Origin: Microbulbifer thermotolerans
GTDB lineage: Bacteria; Pseudomonadota; Gammaproteobacteria; Pseudomonadales; Cellvibrionaceae
DNA: 64,000 bases
Direction: 5' to 3'
NCBI RefSeq assembly: GCF_900112305.1
Contig: NZ_FOKT01000001.1
Coordinates: 496,001-560,000, forward strand
Below the pieces are notes generated by a model, which saw only the letters and a list, made by a program, of their open reading frames with translations, did no database searches and was not told the origin of the DNA. Of this stretch, positions 150 to 57,480 are shown in pieces; position 1 is the stretch's first letter, and each line of letters opens with the position of its first letter. The translations under genes were made by a program, and so were the position numbers.

Positions 150-454
150 GGAAAATCCTTGCTGTTTGGCGTGGCGCCGTATTGTAGCGGATTGGCCGGG
201 GGAGGGCACTCCGGGACGGGCGGCTTTTGCGCTTGGGGCGGGTAAACTGCGCCCGGACCGCGGAGAGTCTTGGTGGGCTCTTCCGGTGCGGGGGCGAATA
301 TGGTATAAAGCGCGCCGCTCCGGGGCTGTCCCGGAGTGAGTTTAATGCCGCACACACATCGGCACATGCGTCTGGGTGCTCTGTCCAATTCGGCTGGATG
401 GGGTTGGTGCATGGGATGTGTGGAGGAGTAACCCGTACAATCGAGGTGTTTGTT
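150..454. promoter_or_regulatory. Divergent map/rpsB intergenic region and rpsB leader
   Basis: A 305-bp region between divergent map and rpsB that must hold promoters for both. A TATAAA sits at 304-309 on the plus strand, but the matching -35 region (about 281-286, TTCCGG) is poor, so this is only a candidate -10 for rpsB. That would leave a 5' leader of about 140 nt. S2 autoregulates through the rpsB leader in many bacteria; I could not fold the leader well enough to claim the conserved structure. No reading frame here has convincing coding character. Confidence 0.4.
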
Positions 455-44444: not shown

Positions 44445-45059
44445 TTACTGAAAATCGACCTGCGGCGCTTTTTCCACGTCCTCTCCGGTGGCTTTGAAGG
44501 TTTCTCGCAGCGGCATATCGCTATAGAGAATCGTATGCCAGATTCGCCCCGGAAAGGTACGGATTTCCCGGTTGTAGCGTTCCACAGCCTGGATATAATC
44601 CCGCCGCGCCACACTGATGCGGTTTTCGGTGCCCTCCAGCTGGGATTGCAAGGCGAGGAAATTTTGATCCGCCTTCAAGTTGGGGTAGCGTTCCACCACC
44701 ACCATCAGGCGCGCCAAGGCGCTGGACAGCTGGGCTTGAGCAGCCTCGAACTGCTGTAACTTGGCGGGGTCGTCAATCAGATTTTGGTCCACTTGTATTG
44801 CGCCCACTTTGGCGCGAGCCTCGGTCACCGCCTCTAGAGTTTCGCGCTCGTGGGCGGCGTAGGCCTTCACGGTTTTCACCAGGTTGGGAATCAGATCGGC
44901 GCGGCGCTGGTACTGGTTCTCCACCTGGGCCCAGGCGGCTTTTACCTGTTCGTCATTGGTGGGAATATTGTTGATGCCGCAGCCGCCGAGTCCGAGCAAC
45001 AGCAAACAGAGCAGGGTACCTGTGCAGAGCCGACGGTTGCCGGCGATGGCGAAATTCAT
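44445..45059 (-). CDS. lemA: LemA family lipoprotein
   Basis: 204 aa. Signal peptide with lipobox LGGC (Cys at about residue 28) and then a long helical LemA domain: AAWAQVENQYQRRADLIPNL (about 42-61), YPNLKADQNFLALQSQLEGTENRI, RRDYIQAVERYN. The hydrophobic-helix N-terminus of many LemA proteins is here a lipoprotein signal. The start at 45059 puts the signal peptide first; a longer in-frame extension adds 26 residues without family support. First gene of the LemA-TPM-TPM-PDZ cluster. Confidence 0.9.
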   Translation of the reverse strand: MNFAIAGNRRLCTGTLLCLLLLGLGGCGINNIPTNDEQVKAAWAQVENQYQRRADLIPNLVKTVKAYAAHERETLEAVTEARAKVGAIQVDQNLIDDPAKLQQFEAAQAQLSSALARLMVVVERYPNLKADQNFLALQSQLEGTENRISVARRDYIQAVERYNREIRTFPGRIWHTILYSDMPLRETFKATGEDVEKAPQVDFQ

Positions 45060-45080
45060 ACGGAGTGCCCCTGTGTCTAG

Positions 45081-45170
45081 GGAACTGCCGAATAATTCGC
45101 TTCCGGGCGGAAATGATATTGCACGCTTTGCAGGCAATAACAGGGCGCGAGCGAATTACTCAGAGGTTCC
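45081..45170. repeat. Dispersed structured repeat, copy A (short)
   Basis: Ends GGAACTGCCGAATAATTCGC (45081-45100) and GCGAATTACTCAGAGGTTCC (45151-45170) are inverted repeats matching at 16 of 20 bases. Between them a GATATTGC/GCAATAAC pair can form a small stem. It lies between the divergent lemA and yaeQ-like genes. The left flank is CTAG; the right is TTAC, so a duplication is not clear. It shares its ends with copies B-D but has a much shorter core. Confidence 0.7.
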
Positions 45171-45246
45171 TTACTTTTTTAGGAAACCACCCAAGAATAG
45201 CCCGCCGTTCCTCCATTGCTGGAGCTGGCGCATACACGGAGCCGAA

Positions 45247-45783
45247 ATGGCGTTAAAAGCGACTATCTTCAAAGCCCAATTACAGGTCGCCGATATGGAT
45301 CGGGACCACTATGGCGACTATCAGCTCACGCTGGCACGCCATCCGTCGGAAACCGATGAACGCATGATGGTGCGCCTCTTGGCCTTTGCCCACAATGCGG
45401 CACGAGAACTCGAGTTTACCCGCGGGCTTAGCTCCGATGATGAGGCCGACTTGTGGCAGCGGGATCTCGCCGGTGAACTGGAGCTCTGGGTTGAAGTGGG
45501 GCTGCCGGCGGAGGAGCGTCTACGCAAGGCGTGTAACAGGGCGCGTCGGGTTTTGGTGTACAGTTACGGGCGCCGCACCGCGCCTGTGTGGTGGCAGAAG
45601 CAGGGCGGCGCCCTGGCGCGCTTTGAAAATCTGCGCGTCTATCAGTTGTGCGCGGATGCGACGGAATCCTTAGCGGCGATGGCCGAGCGCAGCATGGATT
45701 TAAATGTGACCATTCAGGATGGCCATATCTGGCTCAGTGACGCCAGACATACGGTGGAGATTACTCCACAGGTACTGCAATAA
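45247..45783 (+). CDS. yaeQ: YaeQ family protein
   Basis: 178 aa. MALKATIFKAQLQVADMDRDHYGDY at the start is the YaeQ signature, and RHPSETDERMMVRLLAFA and WVEVGLPAEERLRKA are conserved. The family has a PD-(D/E)XK nuclease-like fold; activity is not established, although E. coli yaeQ can compensate for loss of the antiterminator RfaH. Single gene upstream of yajQ. Confidence 0.9.
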   Translation: MALKATIFKAQLQVADMDRDHYGDYQLTLARHPSETDERMMVRLLAFAHNAARELEFTRGLSSDDEADLWQRDLAGELELWVEVGLPAEERLRKACNRARRVLVYSYGRRTAPVWWQKQGGALARFENLRVYQLCADATESLAAMAERSMDLNVTIQDGHIWLSDARHTVEITPQVLQ

Positions 45784-45815
45784 GAAACGGGAAAGAAAAA
45801 CGGAGCAAGCGATAG

Positions 45816-46298
45816 ATGCCCTCATTTGACATAGTGTCCGAAGTGGACAAACACCAGCTGACCAATGCCGTTGACCAAGTAAACCGGACTGTAGCCAATC
45901 GCTTCGACTTCAAGGGCGTGGATGCACAGGTGGAGATGAACGGCTTTGATCTGACTGTACGTGCCGAGGCGGACATTCAGGTCACACAAATGGTAGACAT
46001 GCTGCGCGCGGCGTTGATCAAGTGCAGTATCGATCCGCTGGCGATGACCGTTGGCGAGCCGGAACAATCCGGCAAGCAGATAAAAGTGGCCGTCACCTTG
46101 AAAAATGGTCTGGAAAAAGAATTGTCAAAAAAGATCGTTAAACTCATCAAGGAAGAAAAACTGAAGGTGCAAGCATCTATCCAGGGCGAGCAGGTTCGGG
46201 TTACCGGCAAGAAGCGCGACGACTTGCAGCAGGTGATCGCAATGCTTAAAGGCAAGGAACTGGATCAGCCCTTGCAGTTCACCAATTTCCGCGATTGA
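45816..46298 (+). CDS. yajQ: YajQ family nucleotide-binding protein
   Basis: 160 aa, the normal YajQ length. Begins MPSFDIVSEVDKHQLTNAVDQ and contains RFDFKG, and KVQASIQGEQVRVTGKKRDDLQ near the end. The family binds nucleotides, and some members bind cyclic di-GMP and act with a transcription factor. Cytoplasmic. Its TGA overlaps the next ATG by one base. Confidence 0.94.
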   Translation: MPSFDIVSEVDKHQLTNAVDQVNRTVANRFDFKGVDAQVEMNGFDLTVRAEADIQVTQMVDMLRAALIKCSIDPLAMTVGEPEQSGKQIKVAVTLKNGLEKELSKKIVKLIKEEKLKVQASIQGEQVRVTGKKRDDLQQVIAMLKGKELDQPLQFTNFRD

Positions 46299-47236
46299 TG
46301 ACTGGAAATCCTTTGTTGAGATATCTGATTCTTTCCATTCTTTGGCTGTCGCCGTTCGCGGCGGCCAATTCCGTTACTCCGGCACAGCTGCTTTCCGCTT
46401 ACTGGGTGGACAACAGCCCGGGCCTGGATATTTCCGGGCTGACATTTTGCCATGGCACCCTGCTGGCGGTATCTGATAAGAACTCGTCGGAAATTTACGC
46501 ATTGGAACTGTCGCCGTCCGGTGCGGCGCTGAAAGCCTATCAGCAGGTCGCCGGGCTGGCGATCCCAGAGGAGGCACCGGGAGGGTTTTTGGCGGCGCTG
46601 TCGCAGGCAATCCGACCGGACACGGCAATGGATTTTGAGGGCATCAGCTGCGATAGTGACGGCGTCTACCTTGTCAGCGAGCGCTACAGCCGCATTGCCC
46701 AACTCACTGTTGATGGTGCCGCCTGGCTGGCGGGCGATTGGGCTTTTCAGGTGCGGCGGCAGGGATATTTACAGAAAGTCAACGCCGGTACCGAAGGCCT
46801 GGTTCGAATCGGCAGTGACTTTTGGGTCGCCATGGAGCGCGAACCGCGGGGGTTGCTGCACTTGCCTGCCGGGGGCGAAGCACAAGTATTCCCCATTCCC
46901 GCGGTGGCTGGCCTCGACTTCCGCGGCCGCGCCGAGGATATCACCGGTCTCGCCCACTATGACGGCGCTCTCTTTACCCTGGAGCGCAATGCCTTCGCCG
47001 TGTGCCGGCGCGCCCTGCGCGATCTGCGGGCCGAGTGGTGCATCGACTACAGAGCGATTGAGGAATCCCCCGAATTTGTCTACACGGAGACCCGCTACGG
47101 CAAGGGCGAGGGGCTGGCGGTGGATGCCAGTGGCATCTACGTGGTCCTGGACAACAACAACGTCGGCCGCGCTGCGGATACTGCGGACAAGCGGGCATTG
47201 CTGTTACACTTGGCCTTTCCCGCCGAAGTCCGGTAG
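46298..47236 (+). CDS. Exported phytase-like esterase-domain protein (beta-propeller)
   Basis: 312 aa. A signal peptide (about 1-24, ILSILWLSPFAAAN) suggests export. The body has repeated short strands typical of a beta-propeller: SGLTFCHGTLLAVSDKNSSEIYAL, DFEGISCDSDGVYLVSERYS, GTEGLVRIGSDFWVAMERE, GKGEGLAVDASGIYVVLDNN. The spaced EG(I/L) motifs match the family annotated as esterase-like activity of phytase. Substrate not known. Overlaps yajQ by one base. Confidence 0.65.
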   Translation: MTGNPLLRYLILSILWLSPFAAANSVTPAQLLSAYWVDNSPGLDISGLTFCHGTLLAVSDKNSSEIYALELSPSGAALKAYQQVAGLAIPEEAPGGFLAALSQAIRPDTAMDFEGISCDSDGVYLVSERYSRIAQLTVDGAAWLAGDWAFQVRRQGYLQKVNAGTEGLVRIGSDFWVAMEREPRGLLHLPAGGEAQVFPIPAVAGLDFRGRAEDITGLAHYDGALFTLERNAFAVCRRALRDLRAEWCIDYRAIEESPEFVYTETRYGKGEGLAVDASGIYVVLDNNNVGRAADTADKRALLLHLAFPAEVR

Positions 47237-47238
47237 GG

Positions 47239-47260
47239 CACGCGGCAAAACAACCGCGTG
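47239..47260. repeat. Small hairpin after the phytase-like gene
   Basis: CACGCGG (47239-47245) and CCGCGTG (47254-47260) form a perfect 7-bp stem with an 8-nt loop, 24 bp before the next start codon. No T-run; possibly a translational or mRNA-stability element. Confidence 0.5.
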
Positions 47261-47283
47261 GTTGCAACCCCTAGAGGAAAACA

Positions 47284-47871
47284 TTGGCTGCCCGTCAACT
47301 CCTTAATCTACTCGAAGAAGTCCGTTCCTGCCGCCTCTGTGAACAACACCTGCCCCTGGGGGCTAATCCAGTTTTGCGCGCCGCCGAGTCCGCGCAGCTG
47401 CTGATTGTCGGCCAGGCTCCCGGTACCAAAGTGCACGCGAGCAGTATTCCCTGGAATGACCCCTCCGGTGACCGCCTGCGGGACTGGCTGCAGATGGATG
47501 GTGAAACCTTCTACGATGAATCCCGTATCGCCATTATCCCCATGGGATTTTGCTACCCCGGCCGCGGTAAAGGTGGCGATCTGCCGCCGCGACCCGAATG
47601 TGCGGATACCTGGCACAGACGGCTGCTGGAATTGTTGCCGAATCTACAGTTGACGTTGTTGGTGGGGCAGTATGCCCAAAGGTATTATTTGCCGCATTGG
47701 TACGGCAGCATCAGCGAAAATGTACGCCATTACCGGGATGCGCTACCGGCAGGCTACTTTCCGCTGCCGCACCCAAGTCCGCGCAATACTCTGTGGCTGA
47801 AACAGAGGCCCTGGTTTGAGCAGGAAGTCGTACCGGCACTGCGCCGGCAGATACAAAAAATCTTTCCCTAA
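47284..47871 (+). CDS. Family 4-like iron-sulfur uracil-DNA glycosylase
   Basis: 195 aa. Four Cys at positions 16, 19, 90 and 106 reproduce the CxxC...C(16)C spacing of 4Fe-4S uracil-DNA glycosylases (RSCRLCE, GFCYPG, PECADTW). Motif A reads GQAPGTK instead of the usual GEAPG, and motif B is HPSPRN. It should remove uracil from deaminated DNA. The TTG start at 47284 follows GAGGAAA by 3-4 nt. The unrelated family 1 enzyme Ung is encoded 29 bp downstream on the same strand. Confidence 0.8.
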   Translation: MAARQLLNLLEEVRSCRLCEQHLPLGANPVLRAAESAQLLIVGQAPGTKVHASSIPWNDPSGDRLRDWLQMDGETFYDESRIAIIPMGFCYPGRGKGGDLPPRPECADTWHRRLLELLPNLQLTLLVGQYAQRYYLPHWYGSISENVRHYRDALPAGYFPLPHPSPRNTLWLKQRPWFEQEVVPALRRQIQKIFP

Positions 47872-47900
47872 AATTGGATGATGGCTTTTAAAGGAATAGC

Positions 47901-48623
47901 ATGCAGGTTCCGGAAAATATAAAAATACATCCCTCATGGTACGCGGTACTGCGCGATGAATTTCAGCAGCCCTATATGGCGGAGCTGCGCGAGTTCCTGC
48001 GCGCGGAAAAAGCCGCAGGCAAGGTGATCTATCCCCCTGGTCCGCAGATTTTCAATGCTTTTAACTCTACCCCCTTTGAGCAGGTCAAAGTTGTCATCCT
48101 CGGCCAGGACCCGTACCACGGCCCCGGTCAGGCCCACGGCCTGTGTTTTTCCGTGATGCCCGGTGTACCGCTGCCGCCATCATTGCAAAATATTTTCAAG
48201 GAATTGCAGTCCGACCTGGGTATAGCCCCCTCTGACCACGGCTGCCTGCAGCCTTGGGCAGAACAAGGTGTTCTGCTGCTGAATGCGACTCTCACCGTAG
48301 AGCGCAGCAGAGCAGGAGCCCACCAGGGCCGCGGCTGGGAGCGCTTTACCGATGCCGCCATCCACAAGCTGGCGGAACAGCGCCAGGGTTTGGTGTTTAT
48401 CCTTTGGGGCAGCTACGCACAAAAGAAGGGTGCCTTTATCGATCGCAACAAACATCTGGTTCTGCGCGCTCCGCATCCTTCTCCCTTATCCGCACACCGC
48501 GGCTTTTTCGGAACCAAACCATTTTCACAGACCAACCAGTGGCTGCAGCAGCACGATCAGCAGCCGATTAACTGGGCTTTGCCGCCGGTTTCGGCATTGC
48601 AGCGGGTGGCTGTGGAAATGTAA
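47901..48623 (+). CDS. ung: Uracil-DNA glycosylase, family 1
   Basis: 240 aa. The water-activating motif [13 protein letters not shown] (about residues 73-85), the uracil-binding LLLNATLTV near 130, and the DNA-intercalation loop [11 protein letters not shown] near 198 are all intact. It excises uracil from DNA to start base-excision repair. Last gene before a gene-free kilobase. Confidence 0.96.
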
Positions 48624-48927
48624 ATTTCCGTCTACAAAGATAATGGAAGTTATGAGTATTCGTGCGCAGTCTTTGATAAGAGCGTGAGCACTGTTGCTTT
48701 GGTAGGAATGTTCTGGGTGTGGGGTGGGCCATTTATCTGTAGTCGTTATCACTAATGGATAAACACTGGTTTTATCGCTGAAACTCGTGAATTTTGGTTT
48801 CAAGTAATAAGTGCAATTTTTTATGCATCGAAGGTTGTAATTTAGATTGTGTAACTGCCCATGCCCTCGCGCCCTAACCGGAGAATAGCACAAGCGGAAC
48901 CATGAGCAATTGGGGTCTCGAACAACA
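48624..48927. other. Gene-free stretch after ung
   Basis: About 300 bp, more A/T-rich than its surroundings, with no supported gene, terminator or RNA. It grades into the decayed transposase that follows and may be the residue of the same insertion. Confidence 0.4.
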
Positions 48928-49502
48928 TTCAAAGAACATCTCACCAAGCGTGCCAAAGGCGTTAAGACCGGGGCTGGCTTGAACACTTTTACTCAGAAGC
49001 TTGTCGAGATGACGGTATAGGTTGCTTTCGGGCCGAGCTAAAGAACCACTCCCTAAGGAACCTCTGATTAAATCACTTTCTGGTGGCAGAGGCTCTTCGC
49101 GGGTGGATGTGAAGCTCAGGTGATAGGACGGATATTTCGAAACAGTCGGATACAGGGATGTATCCGTCGAAGCTACAGGGAAGTACTCGTGCGTTTTCGA
49201 AATATCCGTCCTATTACCTGAGCGCCCCAGAAGCTATCATAGTGTTCTCGCGAATTAATCAGAGGTTCCCTAACAGGCTTTCCGGATGCCATTGCGGCGG
49301 AGTAACTCCAATACCAAGATACAGCTTGCATCTACACGCGGTTTGTAACGCATTGAAAAGAGTTTTCTGGGAGGATTACAAGTCCGTTGGACGGAGAGGT
49401 TGTGACGATACAGACAGCGGCGAAAAGCTGGATTATTTCGACGCGTAACTGGGACCTGCACTAAACCGTTTTATGATTGAGTTTGCTGATCAATCCTACT
49501 GA
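48928..49502 (+). pseudogene. Decayed IS256-family transposase interrupted by a miniature element
   Basis: Fragments in more than one frame. 48928-49020 reads FKEHLTKRAKGVKTG onward to a stop (possibly the N-terminal part, unsure). 49033-49056 gives AELKNHS; after the inserted repeat (49057-49273) it continues in frame as LTGFPDAIAAE, then HAVCNALKRVFWEDYKSV, then TIQTAAKSWIISTRNW and ALNRFMIEF up to a stop at 49500-49502. These match the conserved IS256 transposase blocks LTGFPDAI, VRNSLK-WKDYKAV, IQxAxKxW...RNW and ALNRFMIEF. Stops, frameshifts and internal deletions show it is dead. No IS256 terminal repeats were identified. Confidence 0.68.
49057..49269. mobile_element. Dispersed structured repeat, copy B: intact MITE-like element
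   Basis: A 213-bp element with perfect 15-bp terminal inverted repeats, GGAACCTCTGATTAA (49057-49071) and TTAATCAGAGGTTCC (49255-49269). It is flanked by CTAA on both sides (49053-49056 and 49270-49273), a 4-bp target duplication. Inside, GATAGGACGGATATTTCGAA pairs with a matching 3' arm, enclosing a GGATACA/TGTATCC hairpin. It encodes no protein. A GG-starting terminus and YTAR duplication fit mobilisation by an IS5-group transposase (inference). It splits the IS256 remnant. Confidence 0.85.
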
Positions 49503-49681
49503 TTGCCAATAAACTGCCTTTGGGAATCATCTCAGATTTTTCATAGATTCCATTCTCGAGGCGAGTTCACCTCCGATAAGTCCGGAATGATTTACACCAT
49601 ATCCTGAACGTTAGCCTTCTGCTCATAGCGACTCTTTATGTATGTTAATCTGCGGATTCAGTGATTACTGGAGTACTGCCG

Positions 49682-50344
49682 ATGAAGTTTCTGCTTTTTC
49701 TAGGCACCGTTCGTGAAAGTGCACCACCGAGGCCTGCGCGTCTTGGCGTGCGGGTGGCCAAGGCTTGCCTTGAGTGTTTGGGCAGCCGCTATAGTGAGCA
49801 TGAAGTGGAGCTGGTCGATTCCCTGGACTATCCGTTGGAGAAAGTGTTCAAACCGCACTTTGCTTACGCGAAAGGCCAAGCGCCGGTCGCGTTAGAGGCG
49901 CTGGCCGCGAAGATTGCGTCTGCCGACGGGTATATCATGGTCAGTCCGGAGTACAACCATTCCATGAGCCCGGCATTGGCCAACCTGCTAAATCACTTCG
50001 GGAGCTCCCTGTTTTCCTACAAGCCCAGTGTGATTGTGACCTATTCAGCCGGACAGTGGGGAGGTATGCGTGCCGCGGTTGGTATGCGTACATTTCTCTC
50101 GGAGCTGGGTTGCCTGCCGGTTTCTGCAATGATCCATGTGCCCAAGGCTCAGGAGGTCTTTGCCGAAGATGGGGCGCCCCAGGCGGGAGAAGATAAGGAA
50201 TCTTGGTTTGATTATTTCAGCCGCGCTTTCAACCAGATGGTTTGGTGGGGGCAGGCCGCGAGAGCGCATAGGGCAGAGGTGGATCCGCACGAGATGGTCG
50301 GAGATTTCAGGAGGGACCCTTCCCAGCGCAATGCGCCTGGCTGA
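49682..50344 (+). CDS. NADPH-dependent FMN reductase family protein
   Basis: 220 aa flavodoxin-like fold. KFLLFLGTVRESAPPRP at the N-terminus binds the FMN phosphate, and MVSPEYNHSMSPALANLLNH (about 89-108) and TYSAGQWGGMRAAVGMR (about 121-137) are the other flavin-contact segments. Likely an NAD(P)H-dependent flavin or quinone reductase; the physiological acceptor is unknown. ATG at 49682 has GGAG 8 nt upstream. Stands alone, after the transposon remnant. Confidence 0.85.
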   Translation: MKFLLFLGTVRESAPPRPARLGVRVAKACLECLGSRYSEHEVELVDSLDYPLEKVFKPHFAYAKGQAPVALEALAAKIASADGYIMVSPEYNHSMSPALANLLNHFGSSLFSYKPSVIVTYSAGQWGGMRAAVGMRTFLSELGCLPVSAMIHVPKAQEVFAEDGAPQAGEDKESWFDYFSRAFNQMVWWGQAARAHRAEVDPHEMVGDFRRDPSQRNAPG

Positions 50345-50486
50345 TCTATCTCATGGTTGGAATCTGGCTGCATCGGTTGCTCCATGCTGCTTGAAAACAG
50401 CCGGTTGCGGTTATGCCGTTAATCGGCGCGGGCGGTGGTTTCCGCCCGAAAATACCTCGACCACCAAAGGCTGGATGGATGCTTGC

Positions 50487-51515
50487 TCAAGCGAGTGGGT
50501 CCGCGTCCGCGTCGTAGGGTAGTTCCTGCAGTTCCAGTGACCTTCCATCCTCAAGCCGCATCTGTTCCCCGGCAGCCACTTTGGCGATAGTGAGTACGGC
50601 CAGCAATTCGATACCTTTTTCGCTGCGGCAGGATTCCACCAAATTACCGATACTCTGCTCGCCTTCCCCAAAGACCGGTTGTCCTGGTGTAGGTATTTCT
50701 CCGGAGGGGCAGATGGCGCGGTAGAGGCGGCGTTTGGCGGCGCCGCGGAATTGCATTCGCGCCACAACTTCCTGGCCGGTGTAACAGCCTTTCTTGAAAC
50801 TGACACCCCCGAGTAGGTGCAGGTTGGTCATCTGCGGGATAAACAGTTCACTGGTGGCGGCGTACAGTTGGGGAACACCATTTTCAATTTGCAGTTGTTG
50901 CCAGCGGTCGTAGCCAGCGGGATCGGCTTTGTCACTCAGTTGCTGCCAGAGGCCTGGAGCCGACACACTGGGTGCGAGCAGTGCCACTTGACGGTCGTTC
51001 AGTGCCTGCACCAGGATGCGTTCGCCCTTGAAGTCAAACGTGCGTACTTCACCGGCCGTCAGATCGTTCAGGCCCAATAGCTTTGTGGTAGCTTGGGGGG
51101 CGTTTTTACCCTGCAGTCCCAGCCAACGGAAATGTTCACTAATGTCTGCCAGCTCGGTTTTGAAGAAAACTGCGTACTTGGCCAGGGCATCACGCGCGAT
51201 GTTGGTCAGATCCCTAGGCATGCGGAAAACGAATTCCTGTTGGGACACCTTGAGGGCGTTAAAGGCGCTGATCATGCGGCCTTTGGGGTTGCAGTGGGCG
51301 CCCAGGGTGCTGCGGCCGTCCGGCAGAGTGATCAGGTCGCAGGTGAGCTGCCCCTGGAGGAATTTTTGGCTGTCGGGGCCTTTGATGGAGATGGCGCCAA
51401 GCGGGGTCAGGTCAACCAGATGCAGGTCCGCCTCTGTTTCCGGAAAGTGCGCTTTAGGTCCTTCCCAAATGGCGCCTTCGCCTGTGAGAAAGTCCTGCCA
51501 TTGCTGTTGATCCAT
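50487..51515 (-). CDS. ygfZ: Folate-binding protein YgfZ
   Basis: 342 aa. Similar to the T-protein of glycine cleavage; needed with tetrahydrofolate for some Fe-S enzymes such as MiaB. The diagnostic KGCYTGQEVVARMQFRG (about 245-261, Cys in K-G-C-Y-x-G-Q-E) is intact. The start at 51515 puts MDQQQWQDFL first; a 20-residue upstream extension has no family support. Divergent from sdhE, as common in gammaproteobacteria. Confidence 0.93.
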   Translation of the reverse strand: MDQQQWQDFLTGEGAIWEGPKAHFPETEADLHLVDLTPLGAISIKGPDSQKFLQGQLTCDLITLPDGRSTLGAHCNPKGRMISAFNALKVSQQEFVFRMPRDLTNIARDALAKYAVFFKTELADISEHFRWLGLQGKNAPQATTKLLGLNDLTAGEVRTFDFKGERILVQALNDRQVALLAPSVSAPGLWQQLSDKADPAGYDRWQQLQIENGVPQLYAATSELFIPQMTNLHLLGGVSFKKGCYTGQEVVARMQFRGAAKRRLYRAICPSGEIPTPGQPVFGEGEQSIGNLVESCRSEKGIELLAVLTIAKVAAGEQMRLEDGRSLELQELPYDADADPLA

Positions 51516-51650
51516 ATATTCCACGCCTCTGGGTTGATGAGGAGGATAATTTGGGGATCGGTGAGGGCTTTTCAAGCTTCATGCGACTTTTCAACTTTGC
51601 GGGGGAGGGGAGTATACTGCGCGCATATTTAACGGGGTGGAATTTAACCT

Positions 51651-51896
51651 ATGGATCGCAATCGCCTGTTTTGGGCCAGTCGCCGCGGCATGTTGGAACT
51701 GGACCTGGTACTGCTGCCGTTTCTGGAGAATGTCTACGATACCCTGGACGAGGCTGACCAGCAGCGCTATATCAAATTGCTGGACGAGCAGGACCAGGAT
51801 TTGTTTGCCTGGTTTTTGCGCCGCGAGGACCCGGCGGATCCGGATTTGTTGCGAATAGTGCAGATTATCCGTGACAACACCGGTCTGCAGGAGTAA
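51651..51896 (+). CDS. sdhE: FAD assembly factor SdhE
   Basis: 81 aa; promotes covalent flavinylation of succinate dehydrogenase and fumarate reductase. The conserved RGMLELDLVL (residues 12-21) that contacts the flavoprotein is exact, and the size is typical. Overlaps the following ygfX-like gene by 26 bp. Confidence 0.94.
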   Translation: MDRNRLFWASRRGMLELDLVLLPFLENVYDTLDEADQQRYIKLLDEQDQDLFAWFLRREDPADPDLLRIVQIIRDNTGLQE

Positions 51897-52323
51897 TGCG
51901 CATTCCCTGTCTTCCGAGCGCAGTGCCCGGCTGTCCTGTGCCGTGGCACCTTCCCGCCTTCTTTTCAGCCTTCTTCTTCTGACACTTCTGCAAGCGCTGG
52001 CACTGCTCTGGTGGTGCCGTTTACCGCTTTATCTCTTCTTGCCCGCGGTGGCCCTGGTGCTGATCTATATGGGCTTTGAATACCGCCGGCTGCGCTCGAT
52101 GTCCGGCGTGTTGAGCACCCGTGAGCGGCGCTGGTTTTGGCGCGAGGGCGACGGGGTGGAGAGCGAGTTTACGTTGCGCGGCGAGCTGGTGCTGTGGCGC
52201 TGGTTGATAGTGATTAATGGCCGGGATCTGCGGGGGCGCCGCCTGCGGCTGGTGTTAGCGCGGGATTCCATGCATGGGGATGACTGGCGGCGGTTGCAGG
52301 TGGCGCTGCGGTTTTCGCGCTAG
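51871..52323 (+). CDS. ygfX: YgfX-like small membrane protein
   Basis: 150 aa from the GTG at 51871, overlapping sdhE. Two hydrophobic segments (about 28-48 and 52-70: SLLLLTLLQALALLWW, LYLFLPAVALVLIYMGF) precede an Arg- and Trp-rich soluble tail (WFWREGDGVESEF, LRGRRLRLVLARDSM). Position after sdhE and this shape match YgfX/CptA, reported in E. coli as a toxin-like inner-membrane protein acting on cell division. Sequence similarity in this family is low, so the start and name are less certain. Its TAG stop abuts repeat copy C. Confidence 0.7.
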   Translation: MTTPVCRSNAHSLSSERSARLSCAVAPSRLLFSLLLLTLLQALALLWWCRLPLYLFLPAVALVLIYMGFEYRRLRSMSGVLSTRERRWFWREGDGVESEFTLRGELVLWRWLIVINGRDLRGRRLRLVLARDSMHGDDWRRLQVALRFSR

Positions 52324-52533
52324 GGAACTGATTAATTCGCTTGGGTGCTGTAGCTGGCTTCGAGGCGCTCAGGCAATGGGATGGGCATTTCGCAAACGCA
52401 CGAGTGCGTTCCTGTCGCTTCGGCGGATACATCCGTGTATCCGACGATTTCGAAATGTCCATCCCATCACCTGGGCTTCTCATCCAACACCGAAGAGCCT
52501 TTACCGTCAGGAGGCGAATTATTAAGGGGGAAG
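52324..52533. mobile_element. Dispersed structured repeat, copy C
   Basis: About 210 bp in the opposite orientation to copy B. The left end GGAACTGATTAATTCGC (52324-52340) is clear; the right end, GCGAATTATTAAGG..., is diverged. Inside, ATGGGATGGGCATTTCG pairs with CGAAATGTCCATCCCAT, enclosing a CGGATAC/GTATCCG hairpin and an ACGCA/TGCGT hairpin. Read in reverse it aligns with copy B along its whole length, with arms changed together. The CTAG before it includes the TAG stop of ygfX. Confidence 0.78.
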
Positions 52534-52640
52534 CCGCAAAAGAATTTGCGGGAGCGCGGTTGTTGGTTCTGGGGAGGCAGGAAGAAGGTTGTCCTGCAAT
52601 ACCTCGGGCCGGAAAGGGCGGGCAGCTCCGCCCTCTGTGG
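52534..52640. terminator. Two hairpins between repeat copy C and the end of nadB
   Basis: CCGCAAA (52534-52540) and TTTGCGG (52545-52551) form one hairpin. AGGGCGG (52615-52621) and CCGCCCT (52628-52634) form a second, 7 bp beyond the nadB stop on its strand. The second is placed to terminate nadB; neither has a long T-run. Confidence 0.5.
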
Positions 52641-54272
52641 TCAGACGAATTGCCGCTGTCCGGCGAAGTTTTCCGGCACCAGAATGGTGTCCATCGCCAG
52701 TTCGCGCAGGTCCGGGTAGTCCAGGGAGTAGTGTAGGCCGCGGCTTTCGCGGCGGTCCAGGGCCGAGCGGATGATGAGATCGGACACTAGTGCCAAGTTG
52801 CGTAGCTCAATCAGGTCGCTGTTGACCTTATAGTTGGCGTAAAACTCACGAATTTCCTGTTGCAGAAGCTTTACCCGGTGCTGAGCTCGAAGTAGGCGTT
52901 TGCGTGTGCGCACAATGCCCACATAGTCCCACATAAAGCGGCGCAGCTCCTCCCAGTTGTGAGAGATCACCACGTCTTCATCTGAATCGGTTACCCGCGA
53001 GGCGTCCCAGGCCGGGGCGCAGCGCGGCGGTTGTACCGAGTCCAGTGTCTCCTCCAGGTGCAGTGCGGCGGACCGGCCGTAGACTAGGCATTCCAGCAGG
53101 GAGTTGCTGGCCAGGCGGTTGGCGCCGTGCAGGCCGGTGAAAGTGGTTTCGCCAATGGCGTAGAGTTGGTCGAGGTCTGTGCGGCCAAACTGGTCGACGA
53201 TGACGCCGCCGCAAGTGTAGTGCGCCGCGGGTACCACCGGGATAGGTTCTTTGGTGATATCGATACCGTACTGCAGGCAGTTTTTGTAAACGGTGGGGAA
53301 GTGTTCGCGCACGAACTGCGGGTCCTTGTGGGAAATATCCAGGTAAACGCAGTCGGCACCGATACGCTTCATCTCATGGTCTATGGCGCGCGCCACTATG
53401 TCCCGCGGCGCCAGTTCGCCGCGTTTATCGAAGCGATGCATAAATCGGTTGCCGTTGGGCAGCTTTAGTTGCGCCCCCTCGCCGCGCAGGGCCTCGGTGA
53501 CGAGCGAAGCCTTGGCTTTGGGGTGGTAGAGGCAGGTGGGGTGGAATTGGTTGAATTCCATATTGGCGACCCGGCAGCCAGCGCGCCAGGCCATGGCGAT
53601 GCCGTCGCCGCTGGCACCGTCCGGGTTGCTGGTATAGAGATAGGCCTTGCTGGCGCCCCCTGTGGCGAGAACCACTGCCTTGGCCTGGAACAGTTCCACA
53701 TCTTCTGTGGCCTTGTTGTATACATAGGCGCCCGCACAGCGGAAACGGCCTTTGACCGGGTCTGGCTGACGGATCAGGTCCAGTGCCACATGGTGTTCGA
53801 AGCAGTGGATATTTTTGACTTCCCGCACTCGCTCGATCAGGGTGCTGTGCACGGCGCGGCCGGTAGCGTCGGCGCTGTGGATTATGCGGCGGTGGCTGTG
53901 GCCTCCCTCTTTGGTCAGATGATAGCCGCTCTCCTCGCGCGTAAAGTCCACGCCCTGTTCGATCAGCCAGCGGATGGCGGCGGCACTGTTCTCCACGGTG
54001 AATCGCACGGCATCCGGGTGGCAGAGACCGGCACCAGCGTCTAGGGTGTCGGCGATGTGGGAGTCCGCCGAGTCCATTTCGTCGAGTACCGCGGCAATGC
54101 CTCCCTGGGCAAACCAGGTGGAACCGTCCTGCAGTCGTTGTTTGGACAGCAGGGCCACACTGTGGCGTCTCGCCAGGTGCAGGGCCAGTGTCAGGCCCGC
54201 GGCACCACTGCCGATGACCAGTACATCGAAGTCTTTGGGATTGGGTGGGACCTGTGCTTTCATAGATTTCAT
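52641..54272 (-). CDS. nadB: L-aspartate oxidase
   Basis: 543 aa FAD enzyme oxidising L-aspartate to iminoaspartate, first step of NAD synthesis. FAD-binding [19 protein letters not shown] (about 16-34), [12 protein letters not shown] near 51, [17 protein letters not shown] near 121 and [13 protein letters not shown] near 350 are conserved. The C-terminal helical domain ends the family match. nadB beside rpoE on the opposite strand is conserved in gammaproteobacteria. A second Met 3 codons in is an alternative start. Confidence 0.95.
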
Positions 54273-54327
54273 TTATGTTTAGGGGTCGCGTAGTATAGCG
54301 CTTCCTTTGAATTCGTCGATTTGGCTC

Positions 54328-54356
54328 GGAACTTATGCCCTATTGCCATTGTCATC
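54328..54356 (+). promoter_or_regulatory. Sigma-E (AlgU)-type promoter upstream of rpoE
   Basis: GGAACTT (54328-54334) and TCATC (54352-54356) separated by 17 bp closely resemble the sigma-E consensus (GGAACTT, 16-17, TCTGA). It is about 98 bp upstream of the rpoE start. It implies positive autoregulation, known for rpoE and algU. Confidence 0.75.
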
Positions 54357-54453
54357 AACACGATACAAGAAGCGCCTGCGTCGGCATCCCCGCGATTTTC
54401 AGTCGCGGAGCTTGCGGTGCGACTGTTGTTTTTGGGCGTAAAGGGAGTAGGGG

Positions 54454-55068
54454 ATGACAGCGCAATCGGCGCCACAGAGTGACCGCCAGCTGGTGGAGCG
54501 GGTTCAGAAGGGGGATAAGCGCGCCTTCGACCTGTTGGTGCTGAAATATCAGCACAAGATCGTCGCGGTAATCAGCCGCTTTATCAAAGACCACAGCGAG
54601 GTGCAGGACGTAACACAGGAGGCCTTTGTCAAGGCCTACCGGGCGCTGGCCAATTTTCGTGGCGAAAGCGCTTTCTATACGTGGATGTATCGAATCGCCA
54701 TCAATACCGCCAAAAATCACTTGGTTTCCCGCAGTCGCCGCCCGCCATCCTCGGACGTGGACTTGGACGATGCCGAGTTTTATTCCGGTGCCGATCTGTT
54801 GCGGGACAATGAGACGCCGGAGAACCAGTTGTTTCGCGACCAGCTTGAGGCCGCGGTTCACGAAGCTATTCGCGCCCTGCCGGAGGATCTGCGCTCGGCG
54901 GTGACATTGCGCGAAATGGAGGGGCTCAGTTACGAGGAGATCGCAGAGGTAATGGGGTGCCCTGTGGGCACGGTGCGCTCGCGTATCTTCCGCGCTCGCG
55001 AGGCCATAGACCGCACGGTTCAGGCGGTCATGGCCGGTGAGCCCGAGACGCTGGGAGACCGCGGTTGA
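54454..55068 (+). CDS. rpoE: RNA polymerase sigma factor RpoE (AlgU)
   Basis: 204 aa ECF sigma factor controlling envelope stress. Region 2 is in VAVISRFIKDHSEVQDVTQEAFVKAYRAL and YTWMYRIAINTAKNHL (about 35-85), and region 4 HTH in LSYEEIAEVMGCPVGTVRSRIFRARE (about 150-175). Held inactive by RseA, encoded next, and set free by protease cuts that end with RseP at 6.7 kb. An autoregulatory promoter is present upstream. Confidence 0.96.
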   Translation: MTAQSAPQSDRQLVERVQKGDKRAFDLLVLKYQHKIVAVISRFIKDHSEVQDVTQEAFVKAYRALANFRGESAFYTWMYRIAINTAKNHLVSRSRRPPSSDVDLDDAEFYSGADLLRDNETPENQLFRDQLEAAVHEAIRALPEDLRSAVTLREMEGLSYEEIAEVMGCPVGTVRSRIFRAREAIDRTVQAVMAGEPETLGDRG

Positions 55069-55182
55069 ATTTTTTCGCTGGTGGCGAAACAAAGCTCCGC
55101 ATCCCTGGTCAAAAGTAACAACCAAAAGGGTGCCTGTCCGGGCACTAAAAAATATCGCACAGAGCAGAGAGGGTTACCCCCT

Positions 55183-55878
55183 ATGTCCCACGGAAAGCAT
55201 CAGGAACGTCTGTACGAGTCGCTGTCAGCGCTGATGGATGGTGAGGTCGGCGAGCTGGAGCTGCAGCGGTTGCTTAAGGCAAGTGCGGCTTCCTCCGAGG
55301 TGGGGGCGCGCTGGTCACGCTATCAGTTGGCGGCCAGTGTGCTGCGCCGGGAACAGATTGCTCCAGTGGACGGTGACTTGGCGGCGCGCATTTCCGCTGC
55401 TATAGAAAGGGAGGAACCGCCCATGCAATCCGGTGGCGGTGGTGGCGGAGCACCTGGCGGATGGCGTGACAGCCGTTGGTGGCGTCCCATGAGCCGGGGT
55501 GCGGTGGCGGCGACAGTGGCTTTCGCGGCGATTCTCGGGGTGCAGCAAATCTCTTCGGTGCAGCGGGACTCCGGTACCGAGCTGGTGGCGGAAGTGGAGC
55601 GCCCGGCCCAGCAGCCGGTGCAGTCCGCATCACAGCCTTCCGGCTTTTATGTCCCCGCGCCCAGTGCCCGCTCTGTCAGTACCGCGTCTCCGCGCTTGGT
55701 GCCCGACTACCAGCCGGGAGGCAGTGGTCAGGCCGTGATTCAACAGGTCCCCACCCCCGAGCTGATGCGCCACCTGAACCGGGTGATGATTCAACACTCG
55801 GAGCAGGCCGCCCATGTGGGTAGCCAGGGAATGGTGCCTTTTGCACGCGCCACTTATGGTGAACAGCTTGATATGTAG
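55183..55878 (+). CDS. rseA: Anti-sigma-E factor RseA (MucA)
   Basis: 231 aa. Cytoplasmic RseA_N domain (about 5-85: RLYESLSALMDGEVGELELQRLL) binds sigma-E; a single membrane helix (about 105-125, GAVAATVAFAAILGVQ) follows, then a Pro/Ser/Gln-rich periplasmic tail. The ATG at 55183 starts MSHGKHQERLYES, in line with the family; a longer in-frame reading begins just after rpoE. The C-terminal VPFARATYGEQLDM is typical of MucA-type proteins. Confidence 0.9.
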   Translation: MSHGKHQERLYESLSALMDGEVGELELQRLLKASAASSEVGARWSRYQLAASVLRREQIAPVDGDLAARISAAIEREEPPMQSGGGGGGAPGGWRDSRWWRPMSRGAVAATVAFAAILGVQQISSVQRDSGTELVAEVERPAQQPVQSASQPSGFYVPAPSARSVSTASPRLVPDYQPGGSGQAVIQQVPTPELMRHLNRVMIQHSEQAAHVGSQGMVPFARATYGEQLDM

Positions 55879-55891
55879 CCCTGGAGTGCCT

Positions 55892-56836
55892 GTGAACGAT
55901 CGCTGGTCTTTTTCTGCAATCGTTATAAAAGCCAACAGCCTGCTGTTGGCTTTGTTTCTGTTGGCTCCGGCCTCCCGAGCCCAGGACGGCGAAGTGCCGG
56001 TGGAGCATTGGCTGGGCAAGTTGGCCCGTGCGGTTTCCGAGCTTGAATACCACGGCCTGGTGACTTTCGAGCACGCGGGTATGCTGGAGACCATACAAGT
56101 TGTGCACGCTGTGCGCGATGGCGATTCGGTAGAGCGGGTGCGTTATTTGAGCGGTGAGCCGCGCGAGCTGATCAGCCATGGTAGCGCACGGGGTTGCGAA
56201 GAGCCCACCAGCCCCGTAGCGCGCACAGCGCTATGGACTCAAGCCGGTCAGCAAAAGGTGCAGCGCAACTATCAGTTTATTCTGCGCGGTGAAGAGCGTA
56301 TCGCCGATCGCGAGGCCGTGGTGATCGAGGCGCGCCCGCGGGATCATCACCGCCTGGGGCTGGTGATCAGTCTCGACCGGGAGACGGGCTTGCCGTTGAA
56401 ATCTATGCTCGTGAGTGCCAAGGGGCGGGTACTGGAGCGTTATCAGTTTGTGCAGCTGGATCTTTCACCGGTGCAGGACGCCGATTTGCAGCCGCACTCC
56501 AAAGATGCGCGCCGTATTGATAACCGCAATCCCTGTGCAAATGCGCAAAGCCGCTGGCAATTGCGTTGGTTGCCGGACGGTTTCCAGGCCGTGCTGGTCA
56601 AACCTCTGTCCGATGGTGACATGCTGGTGTTTAGCGACGGAATCAGTGTTTTCACTGTGTTCGTGCAGCGCCTGTCTCCAAAGCTGGAGTTCAAAGGGCG
56701 GGCTATTCGCGGCGCTACAGTCGCCTATATGGACCGTCTGGTAGTGGATGGTGTCAACTACACAGTTACGGTTGTGGGCGAAATTCCCGACACAACTGCC
56801 CGGCGTGTTGCGGGCGCGGTAGCTGTGGGTGGCTGA
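55892..56836 (+). CDS. rseB: Sigma-E regulatory protein RseB (MucB)
   Basis: 314 aa periplasmic protein that shields RseA from the first protease. Signal peptide about 1-32 (LLLALFLLAPASRAQ), then the lipoprotein-like RseB domain: VEHWLGKLARAVSELEYHGLVTFEH, ERVRYLSGEPREL, RETGLPLKSMLV. C-terminal domain from about 205 has WQLRWLPDGFQAV. GTG at 55892 has GGAG 5 nt upstream, 13 bp after rseA; a longer frame inside rseA is unlikely. Confidence 0.92.
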   Translation: MNDRWSFSAIVIKANSLLLALFLLAPASRAQDGEVPVEHWLGKLARAVSELEYHGLVTFEHAGMLETIQVVHAVRDGDSVERVRYLSGEPRELISHGSARGCEEPTSPVARTALWTQAGQQKVQRNYQFILRGEERIADREAVVIEARPRDHHRLGLVISLDRETGLPLKSMLVSAKGRVLERYQFVQLDLSPVQDADLQPHSKDARRIDNRNPCANAQSRWQLRWLPDGFQAVLVKPLSDGDMLVFSDGISVFTVFVQRLSPKLEFKGRAIRGATVAYMDRLVVDGVNYTVTVVGEIPDTTARRVAGAVAVGG

Positions 56837-56851
56837 ACGGAGAGTGCCGGT

Positions 56852-57295
56852 TTGTTGGAAGAACGAGGAAGGGTGGTAGCGATAGAGCCGGACGCCATTT
56901 GGGTGGAGACCACCCAGCGCGGAGGCTGTAGCGGTTGCAGCTCGCAGGGCAGCTGCGGTACAGGGCTGCTGAGCGGCTATTTCTCATCGGCTTCACGCAT
57001 TCGTGTGGCACTGAACAGCTGGGACCCAGACGATATCGCTTTGCACGATACCGTTGTGATTGGTATCGGTGAAAACGCTTTGGCCAGTGGGGCCTTGCTG
57101 GTGTACCTGTTGCCGCTGATTTCCCTGGTGCTGGCGGCCCTGGGAGGCCAGGCCCTGGCCGGTGAGTTCGGGGCCATGGCTGGCGCACTCATAGGATTGC
57201 TCGGCGGAGCCGCTTTGGTACGGTTGCACAGTCGTCGCCACGCCGCTGATCCCACCTATGCACCAGTACTTCTGCATCTGGAAACGTCCCGCTGA
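56852..57295 (+). CDS. rseC: RseC/MucC family membrane protein
   Basis: 147 aa. MLEERGRVVAIEPDAIWVET at the start, a Cys cluster (GGCSGCSSQGSCGTG, about 24-38) that may bind an Fe-S centre, and two membrane helices (about 72-120). It modulates sigma-E activity and, in some bacteria, supports the reduction of SoxR. The TTG at 56852 follows GGAG and gives the expected MLEE start. Last gene in the rpoE-rseA-rseB-rseC operon. Confidence 0.9.
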   Translation: MLEERGRVVAIEPDAIWVETTQRGGCSGCSSQGSCGTGLLSGYFSSASRIRVALNSWDPDDIALHDTVVIGIGENALASGALLVYLLPLISLVLAALGGQALAGEFGAMAGALIGLLGGAALVRLHSRRHAADPTYAPVLLHLETSR

Positions 57296-57315
57296 CAGGG
57301 GCTCATCTTTTCTTT

Positions 57316-57480
57316 CCTTCAACATTCGGGTGCCTTTGCGGGCGTGCTTTGGTGCACTCAAGGTGTTCCGGTAATGAAATGAGTGCTACAAACGGCGGAG
57401 CTGCCGATTTCATCACCTGAACTTCTCATCTGCTCTCGACATAACCTTGTCGTTGTAAGGGCGAATTAATGAAAGACTCT
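57316..57480. repeat. Dispersed structured repeat, copy D (shortened core)
   Basis: In the same orientation as copy C. The right end GCGAATTAATGAAAGACTC (57461-57479) matches the family end at 15 of 19 bases, and CACCTGAACTTCTCATC corresponds to CACCTGGGCTTCTCATC in copy C. The core stem is GGTAATGAAAT with ATTTCATCACC, around a CGGC/GCCG hairpin. The left end is too diverged to fix, so the start is approximate. TTAG follows the right end. Confidence 0.65.

Follow-up and report, generated by a model that had tools for sequence, protein, structure and literature searches.

A MITE with IS5-type ends in Microbulbifer thermotolerans and the older two-hairpin module, with CsrA-type loops, that it carries

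A short transposable element occupies more than 100 places in the genome of the marine bacterium Microbulbifer thermotolerans. The best reading of this element, to which we give a little better than an even chance, is that of a MITE spreading putative CsrA-binding sites, in which IS5-type ends surround an older two-hairpin module. Its identity as a MITE is largely established and the structure of the module firmly so; the function, including the binding of CsrA, is what we infer from sequence.

The element was noticed in a window of 64,000 nucleotides (the whole stretch of DNA that was analysed, bases 496001-560000 of contig 21; the genome comprises 3.92 Mb in 30 contigs). The nadB protein encoded there is 84-89% identical, over the best segment, to its counterparts in six named Microbulbifer genomes, in agreement with the genus. 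Four copies, A to D, had been described there in an initial annotation as a repeat family and not chance palindromes (Table 1), a view borne out by the matches in the genome and the genus and by the intergenic placement given below. Against the consensus of 70 other copies of the genome, B, C, D and A score 362, 241, 41 and 36, and the best of 500 dinucleotide shuffles of each reached 43, 33, 31 and 31; all four stand above every shuffle. The ends said to be common to the four copies are present at both extremities of B and at the right end of A, where the match of A to the family consensus is confined to 20 bp; those of C are decayed, and in D, whose match extends over some 66 bp, a good terminal repeat is lacking. 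Of the three copies to which an internal block had been attributed, B and C are picked up by the covariance model; D lacks the central hairpins and, like A, is not picked up. The alignment of B with C over about 200 bp is real, with 162 of 209 aligned positions identical between copies on opposite strands, the P3 loop of C being one letter short (CAGGAACG). No gene call covers B, C or D, in line with what had been claimed for all copies, but A runs into one call (44445-45137) at its extended TTG start; the true start of this call is likely MNFAIAG..., further in. Scans with the terminal repeat and with the covariance model agree that there is no copy in the first 45 kb of this window. The cluster of copies within 12 kb does exist, but it means little because 115 to 147 copies in 3.92 Mb correspond to about two per 64 kb. 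The mobile-element ends, the independent older core and the loop signature were absent from the initial annotation.

Table 1. Copies of the element in the 64-kb window and features of copies B and C (positions in the window)
Feature	Positions	Strand	Basis
Copy A, 90 bp, coreless, a single terminal repeat of the family being clear	45081..45170	.	
Left target-site duplication of copy B, CTAA	49053..49056	.	sequence
Copy B, complete 213-bp MITE	49057..49269	+	both ends and CTAA duplication
Left terminal inverted repeat of copy B	49057..49076	+	2 mismatches vs consensus
Older structured module in copy B	49098..49239	+	covariance model R1, 120.7 bits
P2 hairpin loop of copy B, C[AGGGAT]G, ANGGAN type	49154..49159	+	sequence
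P3 hairpin loop of copy B, C[AGGGAA]G, ANGGAN type	49177..49182	+	sequence
Right terminal inverted repeat of copy B	49250..49269	-	0 mismatches vs consensus
Right target-site duplication of copy B, CTAA	49270..49273	.	sequence
Copy C, older MITE copy with decayed ends and recognisable core	52324..52533	-	
Structured module in copy C	52351..52492	-	covariance model, 117.8 bits
P2 hairpin loop of copy C, C[ACGGAT]G	52431..52436	-	sequence
Copy D, partial and degenerate relative without core hairpins, alignable over about 66 bp	57316..57480	-	

In the whole genome, copy B used as a query has at least 40 near-full-length matches with 89-100% identity (40 of 265 candidates scored), and the terminal repeat is found within 3 mismatches at 379 sites (186 + 193), compared with 0 for the reversed control. 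A covariance-model search, as the initial annotation had proposed, was run on this genome and on the genus. The model used for the former was built solely from other genomes of the genus, the genome of M. thermotolerans being excluded, and gave 147 matches among the 150 candidates scored, out of more than 150. Among these matches, 115 are listed as distinct places, and the others may include second-strand matches. From 80 loci, chosen by their ends or by their likeness to copy B, and from the window, 91 end-to-end elements were extracted, including 55 of 213 bp and 13 of 212 bp. A sample of 20 hits of the model in other places included 17 with both terminal repeats and 3 with one.

The copies terminate in GGAACCTCTGATTAATTCGC. 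Identical 4-bp flanks surround 51 of the 74 elements of 211-214 bp, and 45 of these are of the YTAR type, versus a mean of 12.3 and a maximum of 22 identical flanks when the flanks are re-paired at random. Over all lengths, the flanks are identical for 53 of the 91 elements, and in the sample picked by the model for 10 of 17. YTAR-type targets are those duplicated by IS5. Two copies (L099 and L124) are nested insertions inside diverged older copies of the family: once the flanks are joined, they can be aligned with the family, with gaps, through the point of junction. No comparable empty site was found for copy D among the relatives shown, in which the gene adjacent to rseC differs. Five matches to DDE_Tnp_1 were found in the genome, four of them at contig ends; the internal one, on contig 15, is an IS5-family transposase according to NCBIfam (246 bits for a cut-off of 140). 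An element related to this IS5-family element is found at two contig ends and terminates in GGAACCTCTGATCAACTCACCG, its first 34 bp matching the end of the MITE at 85%. No full-length autonomous IS with the ends of the MITE was found in this genome, where four of the five transposase matches are at contig ends. The terminal repeats, the 4-bp YTAR duplications and the nested insertions, together with an IS5-family element whose relative has a similar end, make it very likely that these repeats are a non-autonomous IS5-type MITE. An IS5-family DDE transposase would recognise the 20-bp ends, move the MITE in trans and duplicate YTAR targets. A copy of the MITE lies directly upstream of the start codon of the transposase gene of contig 15. 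Carriage by plasmids or phages was considered and rejected, since searches of both at E 1e-5 gave no match to the element; one stretch in viral contigs shows an exact pattern match.

The inside of the element has a much wider distribution. Among the matches listed, those of congeners to copy B cover its inside and not its ends, and copy B is matched at E up to 1e-5 in 8 of the 48 genomes of the genus, that of M. thermotolerans included. A covariance model of the module, made from 21 congener copies (a locus with a duplicate core, L069, was left out of their alignment), matches 45 of the 48 Microbulbifer genomes, again with that of M. thermotolerans, up to 67 candidates being scored per genome. 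Within the order, with 8 candidates scored per genome, it also matches 133 of the 390 genomes sampled, which belong to 60 of the 143 genera (own genus included in both counts). IS5-type ends are absent near all 35 copies of one congener (G010) and all 26 copies from other congeners, and the congener copies have no evident ends or duplications; the copies examined in M. thermotolerans are nearly all in the IS5-ended form. The module is very likely an independent, conserved and structured entity with an order-wide distribution. As the ends are missing in congeners and present in M. thermotolerans, this older module was clothed in IS5 ends in the lineage of M. thermotolerans.

The module folds as a long stem with two arms, the hairpins P2 and P3, of which P3 is short and drawn differently by two folding analyses. 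On the MAFFT alignment, 97.4% of cells are paired, a share that is biased because this alignment also served to derive the structure; counts of both-sided changes are less affected. Such changes are seen at 24 of the 44 pairs (19/28 in the long stem, which varies most, 5/11 in P2 and 0/5 in P3) and concern 143 cells; shuffles gave 39.8, and sliding the partners never gave more than 26. For single-strand folding of four copies, z-scores range from -6.5 to -12.8.

Both hairpins have the same invariant letters throughout the 21 congener copies, C-A-(N)-G-G-A-(N)-G, where N is variable and partly missing in P2. The pattern CANGGANG fits P3 in all 21 copies and P2 in 14, because seven copies lack one N and have a pentaloop. 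A further set comes from 18 other genera (26 loci, 32 rows); CANGGANG is matched by both loops in 27 rows, antisense matches, which were retained, account for some of the five exceptions, and about 20 different P2 stem halves are seen. Among the copies of M. thermotolerans (89 rows, 87 distinct, two copies being repeated), P2 fits in 69 rows, P3 in 77 and both in 63, leaving 26 rows in which at least one loop departs from the strict motif. The corresponding figures in G010 are 35, 51 and 34 of 83 rows, antisense matches again included. In copy B, P2 reads AUACAGGGAUGU. The genome encodes one canonical CsrA, MLILTRRIGETLMVGD....

According to a review (PMC7652899), the SELEX consensus of CsrA is RUACARGGAUGU, mostly in six-base loops with AC pairing with GU, targets of RsmE have an ANGGAN loop, and CsrA may be disfavoured by structures of very high stability. 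The loops of the module, C-ANGGAN-G, are this published CsrA/RsmE signature, and they are borne by stems that change with compensation. CsrA binding thus appears as the best single explanation of the conservation of the loops, although it is weakened by the random strand of the copies (see below), and the chances that it is the main biological role of the module seem about even. A copy included in a transcript in the right orientation would provide the RNA with two CsrA/RsmA sites. These sites could tie the neighbouring mRNA to CsrA, and the many copies, summed, could titrate this protein.

The gene context was established with our codon-usage gene caller, by which some genes are missed. In M. 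thermotolerans, 80 of 81 copies are outside gene calls, which indicates an absence of coding capacity and answers the intergenic bias that the initial annotation had proposed to verify. This is also the case for 33/35 copies in G010, 22/26 best copies of other congeners and 15/15 further congener copies, i.e., 150 of 157 in total. Six duplicate congener copies were removed from these sums, and 10 of the 91 elements of M. thermotolerans (core score <54 or length >230) and two loci, L173 (too short) and L174, were left out. No overall sense-strand bias relative to tandem neighbours was detected (47/89 sense, p = 0.67; set by set, 19/43, 14/25, 12/16 and 2/5), and a general bias of this kind was rejected. 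The upstream gene is in sense for 17 of 22 best copies per congener (p = 0.017), several of which are the same place in different species. As the strand is random with respect to tandem neighbours, a general role as sense RNA is disfavoured. Some positions are nevertheless fixed across species. With gene names given by NCBIfam, six genomes share a module at one position between hslV and hslU, and three genomes share one between hisH and hisA, in sense in both cases. In these copies the loops are largely kept (one of six P2 being a pentaloop), and the stems are re-paired. Another copy lies between two PilT/PilU-type genes.

The random strand is what would be expected from purely selfish DNA, whose cruciform and loops would be kept for some mobilising enzyme, perhaps of a kind that acts on hairpins in single-stranded form, the likeness to CsrA sites being incidental. 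The multicopy and intergenic character of the module, the congener copies devoid of IS5-type ends or evident duplication, and the inverted pairs seen at 14 of 35 loci of G010 (12 of them head to head, like REP pairs) are all compatible with this explanation. We nevertheless regard it as unlikely, since the loops are conserved and degenerate at just the positions where the CsrA signature is, and the structure is maintained at the fixed operon positions just described. Furthermore, although Y1_Tnp of Pfam is found in 45 of the 48 genomes of the genus, the element is near just one of the 49 Y1-transposase loci examined, and a RAYT/REP origin was rejected on this count. At one locus of M. thermotolerans (L039), a broken gene beside an IS5-like end is one that we take to be RAYT-like.

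Roles at mRNA ends or in relation to RNase III have been proposed for REP, ERIC and Correia elements. The module could likewise be a 3'-end element, whose hairpin would protect mRNA ends, slow read-through or be cut by RNase III. Both orientations would then work, a random strand being expected from such a long palindrome, and copies are indeed much more frequent in convergent than in divergent gaps (38 vs 8, p = 9e-6, over four sets without double counting). This role is improbable, however, as the conservation of the loops is asymmetric and concerns one strand, and several copies are located between genes of operons. Equally improbable is an origin of the stem changes in template-switch correction of quasi-palindromes, to which long near-perfect palindromes are prone, or in gene conversion among the many similar copies of each genome, rather than in selection on structure, as neither would explain loops that resist change while stems vary, across genera.

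The number of csrA genes was compared with that of modules in the 48 genomes of the genus, up to 67 module candidates being scored per genome. In eleven genomes, csrA is matched 5-27 times and the module 0-20 times, whereas the 30 genomes with at least 28 module matches have 0-2 csrA; the other seven have 0-19 modules and 0-1 csrA. The 11 csrA-rich genomes form one clade of the nadB tree (support 1.0), so that this contrast counts once and not eleven times, and an anti-correlation made of many independent cases was rejected. No csrA match was found in six of the 48 genomes (G017, G023, G032, G033, G037 and G047), five of which have at least 38 module matches. Unless csrA was missed in them, these module-rich genomes without csrA are not explained by CsrA binding. 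Another paper (PMC7366521) reports that plasmids and phages can carry csrA genes and that more than one csrA is found in Pseudomonas and Legionella.

The element has features of several known systems. Like IS5-family MITEs, it is short and non-coding, appears to share its terminal inverted repeats with an IS5-family element present in its own genome and is flanked by a 4-bp YTAR duplication; unlike them, it carries a conserved and independently distributed structured module instead of IS leftovers. REP, BIME and REPIN are palindromic, intergenic and present in many copies, REP being short. The element shares these three characters, and the inverted pairs of G010 add to the likeness, but its module is of about 110-140 nt, and in M. 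thermotolerans the copies are bounded by ends and duplications of IS5 type. Correia elements (CREE) and ERIC are likewise intergenic and MITE-like and form long hairpins in transcripts; the present element has other ends, and to our knowledge neither of the two has been described as having twin ANGGAN loops. CsrB/CsrC and RsmX/Y/Z, the sponges of CsrA, are sRNA genes found at single loci. As in these RNAs, which have more than one hairpin with GGA in the loop per molecule (PMC7652899), the loops of the element bear GGA; it differs from them by two sites per unit, more than 100 dispersed places and a transcript that is putative. Known CsrA antagonists are mostly dedicated sRNAs (PMC7652899).

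Identity with an Rfam family was rejected, no repeat reaching the threshold. In the 64-kb window, the repeats have no match at the gathering threshold, the sole match, t44, being elsewhere in the window. In 20 congener loci searched with E up to 1, all 13 hits are below the gathering score (for example Ysr224, with 23-34.5 bits vs 70 required), and one further hit is at chance level. No prior description of the element was found in the open-access full text searched, subscription papers being outside this scope.

CsrA is a global regulator in many bacteria. As a possible, though rather doubtful, wider scenario, a repeat module of marine gammaproteobacteria with twin CsrA sites would have become an IS5-type MITE in one Microbulbifer lineage and seeded more than 200 sites, the Csr network being rewired by transposition. 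If this were true, each sense insertion would put a transcript under CsrA and the copies together would buffer CsrA; many csrA with few modules, as in one clade, and the reverse may then be two states between which a single balance can settle. Even if CsrA plays no part, a structured repeat that occurs in 60 of the 143 genera sampled and that, in the loci searched, matches nothing in Rfam at threshold represents a gap in annotation. If the CsrA-type loops do bind, transposition would spread the regulatory sites of a global RNA-binding protein, and this family could serve as a test bed for the growth of regulatory networks.

Matches to csrA, the gene of the RNA-binding regulator CsrA, are concentrated in a single clade of Microbulbifer (G009, G021, G029, G030, G031, G035, G039, G041, G043, G044 and G045), with 5-27 matches per genome, several of them lying in open frames of at most 142 codons. 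Matches to the module, the structured core with a long stem and two hairpins, are scarce in this same csrA-rich clade. The csrA search gave no match in G017, G023, G032, G033, G037 and G047, unlike other genomes of the genus, in which a canonical copy is present; five of these six assemblies consist of a single contig.

In the congener G010, modules are often arranged as inverted pairs: 14 of 35 loci carry such pairs, whose partners are separated by 9-57 bp, head to head in 12 cases. In the M. thermotolerans genome, one MITE-like array holds three copies of the module, head to tail and spaced by ~171 bp.

Sub-threshold matches (23-34.5 bits against a threshold of 70) to the Yersinia sRNA Ysr224 were obtained at L050, L051, L052, L053, L056, L069, L071 and L072. 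They fall on both strands, most at modules, and probably reflect a generic hairpin resemblance. Within the window, t44 RNA (RF00127), an rpsB leader, was matched with 69.5 bits.

Elsewhere in the M. thermotolerans genome, an exact 34-bp copy of the IS5-type end adjoins a broken Y1 gene, which we take to be RAYT-like. At another locus, a gene for an IS5-family transposase has a MITE (the ~213-bp IS5-type repeat) immediately before its start codon, an insertion that could change the expression of the gene.

Location of the individual features
Feature	Locus	Position
t44 RNA	window	331-432
Head-to-tail modules	L125	1065-1548
Inverted module pairs (G010 examples)	L342, L343, L352, L356	
IS5-type end, broken Y1 gene	L039	1503-2000
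MITE before transposase gene	L031	G000:C15:376700-378200
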